A DNA stretch of 53,816 nucleotides from a virus, in IMG/VR virus record IMGVR_UViG_3300032050_000179, positions 1 through 53,816 of that record, one strand, 5' to 3'. A model generated the notes under the pieces. The model saw only the letters and a program-made list of their open reading frames with translations, was not told where the DNA came from and did no database searches. Positions 14,623 through 14,703 of the stretch are shown here, one piece after another; within the stretch, counting starts at the first letter, position 1, and every line of letters begins with the position of its first letter. The translations under genes and the position numbers were made by a program.

Positions 14623-14703
14623 AAACTGAGAATAATAACAAGAGCGTTGTTTCGGTTACAAAGTAAAAGTTTGTTGAAGTAACTCTCGTTTCCGCTTCAG
14701 TTT
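14623..14703 (-). ncRNA. Element copy holding only a lysine-type anticodon hairpin (unit F)
   Basis: The outer helix AAACTGA/TCAGTTT and the eight-pair inner helix ACGAGAGT/GCTCTTGT, with AGCGG, TACTTC and ATTC, match the permuted-tRNA element. The inside is only about 30 nt and forms ACAAA-CTTTTAC-TTTGT, a five-pair stem with a seven-nt loop, exactly like an anticodon arm reading UUU. There is no D arm, T arm or acceptor. It may be a remnant of a permuted tRNA, or a free anticodon-arm mimic. Confidence 0.65.

Follow-up and report, generated by a model that had tools for sequence, protein, structure and literature searches.

The element at 14703-14623 on the minus strand of the 53.8-kb viral contig analysed here (the window) is, judged by sequence and family, a Y RNA, i.e., the known RNA partner of Ro60/Rsr, and it is enclosed by an array of ~22 tRNA genes. 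This assignment of the element, called F in the following, is made because copies of its motif accompany Rsr genes and because two sister copies weakly match the Y RNA YrlA. By analogy with characterised Y RNAs, we consider it somewhat probable that F, encoded by a large tailed phage, acts as a tether between Rsr and a protein recognising tRNA anticodon arms. An earlier note on this DNA had given the same boundaries, which are exact, and had left the strand unstated.

Structure of the element and association of its family with Rsr

Read 5' to 3' on the minus strand, F is composed of P1, GAAGCGG, P2, UUAC-UUC, the tip, GAAACAACG, P2', AUU-AUUCUC and P1', and its extent (14623-14703, both outer-helix strands included) is based on the fold, the family scan and covariation. 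The outer helix P1, which covaries in the family, pairs the 5' strand AAACT (14703-14699) with the 3' strand AGUUU (DNA AGTTT; 14627-14623). Between P1 and P2 lies an internal loop with the near-invariant GAAGCGG, the presumed Rsr-binding region, on its 5' side (14692-14698) and the conserved AUUCUC (DNA ATTCTC; 14628-14633) on its 3' side. In the inner helix P2 the 5' strand AACGAGAG (14690-14683) faces the 3' strand CUCUUGUU (14644-14637), and the pairing of AACGAGAG with CTCTTGTT amounts to eight pairs including one G-U. The tip module is preceded by the conserved UUACUUC (14676-14682), the UUC of which can pair with GAA at 14653-14651, and is followed by the conserved flank GAAACAACG (14645-14653), which reads (U)GAAACAAC(A/G) in other copies. 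The insert of F measures 31 nt, contains no tRNA halves, and forms the anticodon-arm-like hairpin ACAAA-CUUUUAC-UUUGU (14658-14674) with the 'anticodon' UUU, consisting of a 5-bp stem (ACAAA 14674-14670, TTTGT 14662-14658) and a 7-nt loop (CTTTTAC 14669-14663). RNA folding returns P1, P2, the short UUC/GAA helix and the tip hairpin as both the minimum-energy and the centroid structure (-15.8 kcal/mol, z -1.8). The outer helix, internal loop and inner helix are all present in F, of which the earlier note had said that it keeps every conserved part of the element, and the eight covarying pairs which that note had claimed for the inner helix are confirmed, the covariation of the helices being supported across the family.

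Motif scans covering viral contigs as well as bacterial and archaeal genomes recovered 94 unique element copies in which the outer and inner helices pair, compared with 0 in reversed sequence; looser rules applied to a larger set gave 157 copies compared with 1 in reversed sequence. Among viral matches found without requiring pairing, each of the first four P1 positions is occupied by 4-5 standard pair types, counted on those matches in which all four pairs are formed. The bacterial copies adjoin genes encoding TROVE (Ro60)-domain proteins, with a TROVE Pfam match of 2e-12 in L139 and of 2e-4, below the cut-off, in L157, and an iterated profile identified an Rsr homolog in 38 fetched loci. In the genome scan, Rsr was located on the same locus for 5/7 bacterial matches with a paired P1 and for 0/37 with an unpaired P1. 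Full Rsr is encoded by 12/16 viral records bearing such Y RNAs, and the remaining 4/16, which are without Rsr, are fragments of 15-39 kb. In L054 and L038, Y RNAs are found beside rsr and also within a tRNA array, the latter as in the window. Moreover, the stem helices and the conserved internal loop of F are those of the Y RNAs on Rsr-bearing loci and in Bacillus phage G, an isolated phage whose TROVE gene gp540 is immediately preceded by several such elements in a row. The family identity of F, its structure and the association of the family with Rsr are established at this level of sequence comparison.

Y RNAs are known to occur in bacteria and phages (PMC11472068; PMC8394870; PMC12282133; for bacterial and phage Y RNAs also Chen et al. 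2014 RNA 20:1715, as cited in PMC7790460, PMC8394870 and PMC12282133), and TROVE proteins have been reported in some jumbo phages (PMC7824862). The window, a partial contig of a large phage, contains no Rsr gene; as the record is incomplete, Rsr is assumed to be present in the phage of F, and F is predicted to bind it. Two window proteins have a resemblance to proteins of very large phages, e.g., Lak phages; motif copies are absent from LR756500, LR745206 and LR756502, megaphage relatives of window proteins, and surveys among the relatives of Flavobacterium and of Ruminococcus, at ~390 genomes per class, revealed no further Rsr of this type.

Y RNAs situated beside rsr were observed in L008, L054, L099, L101, L124, L183, L186, L189, L096, L063, L205 and L100, and those directly upstream of the gene frequently have a tip as large as ~140-240 nt, in which some stretches are conserved, e.g., gacuagaaa...ggaacgauuaccuc...gaggga. 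The large tip of L054 or L101 matched no Rfam family, and it is possible that this rsr-upstream tip represents a new Y RNA effector module.

Anticodon-arm-like hairpins at Y RNA tips

We define an anticodon-arm mimic as a tip class with a stem of at least 4 bp and a 7-nt loop of the form Y-U-NNN-R-N, to which the hairpin of F belongs. In a first set, the strict form CUNNNAA with at least 4 bp, a pattern whose test followed its recognition in these very data, occurs in 8/33 non-redundant short tips compared with 0.07 expected from dinucleotide shuffles; other loop lengths of 5-11 gave 0, and rearranging these four letters gave 0.18 on average. In an enlarged set, a 7-nt CUNNNA(A/C) hairpin occurs in 16/60 non-redundant Y RNAs without a T-arm compared with 0.28 expected, a comparison in which 7/16 cases stem from loci or copies added later and which overstates independence because some of the 60 tips may share ancestry. 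Reversed inserts of this set gave 0 hairpins and reverse complements 1, and loop lengths of 4-6 and 8-11 were not represented, while length 12 was found twice. The anticodon-arm class is thus statistically real, and it is missing in 44/60 short-tip Y RNAs, including another window copy. The triplets presented in the class are CAG, GUU, CAU, CUU, UCC, UUU, UUA, GUC, AUU, UGA, GAU and AAC; of the 16 hairpins, three carry UUU and one CUU, the rest comprising ten further triplets.

Canonical anticodon loops are also frequent in permuted tRNA modules and in acceptor-less tRNA bodies, the latter a third type of Y RNA in which D-, anticodon- and T-arms are retained and the Y stem replaces the acceptor stem. 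F is therefore an example of a more general tendency of these RNAs to display anticodon loops, be it in bare tips, permuted modules or tRNA bodies. Unpermuted tRNA bodies of this type were observed in L046, L050, L067, L085, L107, L116 and L257, and the tip of L050-2305 holds a complete tRNA-Lys(UUU). Anticodon arms occur in cellular genomes as well (Ruminococcus, Chitinophagales, Spirochaetes), and three Y RNAs of a single Ruminococcus locus present hairpins with CAG, GUC and GAU. Several Y RNAs with differing canonical anticodon hairpins lie near one rsr in Ruminococcus L157 (2710-, 766-, 493-), L153 and L340, the sets near rsr being CAG, GUC, GAU and GUU, GAU; the loop CUGUCAC is that of tRNA-Asp. 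Anticodon-like loops with UUA, a triplet that as an anticodon would read the stop codon UAA, were seen in L067 (1807, 2059) and L082 (618). Furthermore, an apparently orthologous set of Y RNAs (L020, L045, L082, L084, L097, L113, L114, L054, L288) is positioned between tRNA-Val and tRNA-Asn in several phages; its tip stem ends covary (ACAAA/UUUGU, UCAAA/UUUGA), and its loop of 7-10 nt varies around CUNNNAA.

Taken alone, the evidence for anticodon mimicry in F is moderate. In dinucleotide shuffles of F, hairpins of the form Y-U-NNN-R-N with 5 bp or more arose in 0.7% and those of the form C-U-NNN-A-N in 0.2%, and the shuffle probability of its hairpin was 0.002-0.03. With F alone being only moderately unlikely by shuffling (0.2-3%), F could be a Y RNA with a plain short stable hairpin tip, whose likeness to a lysine anticodon arm is a coincidence. 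This would accord with the short-tip window copy at 10413-10339, which is without such a hairpin, and with loop position 38, which is C in F and usually A in tRNA-Lys; the lysine-like UUU hairpin of the earlier note is genuine and one of a recurring class, but deviates from the usual tRNA-Lys at this position. Among relatives, F is carried by near-identical contigs only: two window proteins led only to the near-identical L327 and to distant phages in which no F copy was detected. In the nearest divergent relative, L053, a similar tip keeps CU-NNN-AC, but its stem is weaker. Against coincidence, the class as a whole lies far above chance, and F has the C32, U33 and A37 as well as the 5-bp stem that belonging to it requires. 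We consider coincidence unlikely, and from these comparisons the anticodon-arm look of F is probably not due to chance.

Proposed role of the tip and candidate partners

Y RNAs are thought to choose the enzyme partner of the Ro60 ring, and Y RNAs presenting anticodon loops point to a partner which reads anticodon arms. In the reading that we favour, the handle for the phage's Ro60-type ring protein Rsr would be formed by P1 together with the GAAGCGG/UUAUUCUC internal loop of F, P2 would act as a variable spacer, and the tip would present the anticodon stem-loop. By analogy with characterised Y RNAs, which tether Ro60/Rsr via the tip to a second protein such as PNPase in D. radiodurans (PMC7790460, PMC8394870), F would hold Rsr at one end and an anticodon-arm-recognising protein at the other. 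Candidates for this tip partner include nucleases and enzymes of RNA repair or modification; another is a host anticodon nuclease, which would thereby be occupied. Such a complex may affect infection. Near the tRNA array, the window encodes at 6048-7178 (minus strand) an RNA-repair nucleotidyltransferase of the RlaP family (PF10127, 8e-17), a family linked to the repair of cut anticodon loops (PMC7824862). RtcB and RlaP were rejected as a general Y RNA partner, being absent from 16 and 12 other Y RNA records examined, respectively.

An alternative is a decoy role, in which F, kept in a stable complex with Rsr, would compete for host anticodon nucleases (PrrC, PARIS-type or similar) in place of tRNA-Lys(UUU) and protect translation during infection. 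In its favour, phage Y RNAs repeatedly carry anticodon arms, UUU and CUU loops are found in several module types, anticodon-loop cleavage is a common second-line defence (PMC7824862), and a decoy role against anticodon nucleases has been raised for YrlA (PMC7790460). However, a lysine-specific decoy fails to explain the class, because only 3/16 hairpins carry UUU and one CUU next to ten further triplets; many other anticodons are present (CAG, GUU, CAU, UCC, GUC, GAU, UGA and others). The arms occur also in cellular genomes, where a decoy of phage origin would hardly be expected outside prophages, no nuclease was identified, and YrlA itself was found uncut (PMC7790460). We therefore judge the decoy to be rather unlikely as the function of F.

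Returning to the tethering of Rsr to an anticodon-reading protein, a broader form of this idea may be put forward tentatively. Large phages and some bacteria could possess sets of Y RNAs with differing anticodon loops, presented as a bare hairpin, as a mini-hairpin on a permuted YrlA module or as an acceptor-less tRNA body, which bring Rsr to anticodon-directed enzymes or neutralise nucleases. If true, this would constitute an RNA-guided layer of tRNA damage control; no description of such a layer acting via Y RNAs was found in the literature accessible to us, and priority is uncertain. The class of anticodon-presenting Y RNAs would link the Ro60 systems of phages with bacterial defences that cut tRNAs.

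Sister copies in the window and known Y RNA systems

The window contains further Y RNAs on the minus strand. Copy C (14128-14275) comprises a YrlA-like permuted tRNA module with the mini-hairpin AGC-CUCUUAA-GCU (Rfam YrlA E=4e-4, alignment), copy B (13981-14119) a YrlA-like permuted module with no clear anticodon hairpin (Rfam YrlA E=6e-4), and copy A (13837-13974) a permuted module with the hairpin UUUUUU-CUGUAAC-AAAAAA; a permuted tRNA-Leu-like module is present at 10810-10947, and the short-tip copy mentioned above spans 10339-10413. Copies B and C align with the whole Rfam YrlA model at E ~5e-4, under the curated (gathering) cut-off. The Rfam search yielded only tRNA and these sub-threshold YrlA matches as relevant hits and no ribozyme family, and F itself matched no Rfam family, YrlA included. 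The tRNA module of the permuted copies has its opening within the anticodon stem, between positions 28 and 29, and in several phages a 3-bp anticodon mini-hairpin is added at this opening, e.g., AGC-CUCUUAA-GCU in copy C and GAC-AUUAUGA-GUC in phage G. Tracts resembling tRNA genes were also observed in the window at 14616-14438, 14390-14300, ~9920-9800 and ~11120-11055 (all minus strand), in which the acceptor strands match and the middle is abnormal or greatly enlarged; they were missed by ARAGORN.

YrlA is known to superpose on a circularly permuted tRNA (PMC11472068; PMC8394870; PMC12282133), and with this layout no splicing is needed to account for the permuted tRNA halves of A, B, C and 10947-10810. 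The earlier note had considered F a relic of a permuted tRNA-Lys gene, for which the permuted modules of the sister copies, one with a CUU (Lys) loop (14275-14128), could be cited. However, the sister modules are split between 28 and 29, whereas the stem of F is uninterrupted, is unlike that of the phage's own tRNA-Lys and is accompanied by no trace of T-, D- or acceptor sequence. A 3' half followed by a 5' half with complementary acceptor strands, the hallmark of a permuted tRNA gene, is found in the sister copies as YrlA modules and not in F, which makes the relic very improbable. A small self-processing or circularising element releasing a ~30-nt hairpin RNA is scarcely credible: its inserts are flanked by two conserved half-motifs as in a permuted intron-exon arrangement, but these halves form one continuous Y RNA stem adjoining Rsr genes, on which ground self-splicing was discarded, no ribozyme family was matched, and the permuted layout is the known one of YrlA (PMC11472068, PMC8394870). 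The free, excised or circular RNA of ~30 nt which the earlier note had envisaged is unsupported, since the hairpin forms the end of an entire Y RNA with the stem of the Rsr-associated family. Identification of these elements as Y RNAs explains several oddities of phage tRNA arrays, i.e., permuted and anticodon-only 'tRNAs', without new splicing.

Compared with known systems, F, read as a Y RNA tether, resembles the bacterial and phage Y RNAs in its long stem formed by the ends, its conserved internal loop and its variable tip module. Many of those adjoin rsr, whereas F is embedded among tRNA genes on a contig that contains no rsr, and has a bare anticodon-arm-like hairpin as its tip. With YrlA (RF02553; crystal structure 6CU1), A, B, C and 10947-10810 have the permuted T-acceptor-D layout in common, whereas F is without this module, lacking the T-arm, the closed acceptor stem and the D-arm; the YrlA Rfam consensus has no anticodon mini-hairpin, which copy C and several other phage copies possess in addition. 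In Bacillus phage G (L341, 405198-407350), at least five or six Y RNAs, unannotated in the record, precede gp540; this row, accompanied by the TROVE gene, has the GAAGCGG / UUAC-UC / AUCUC motifs and the helices in common with F, but its tips are mostly different, among them one permuted tRNA module with a UAU mini-hairpin. The tethering logic of RYPER, the complex of D. radiodurans Rsr, Y RNA and PNPase, is expected to apply to F alike, with Rsr at the stem and the effector at the tip, the effector being PNPase in RYPER and a candidate anticodon-arm-recognising protein in F.
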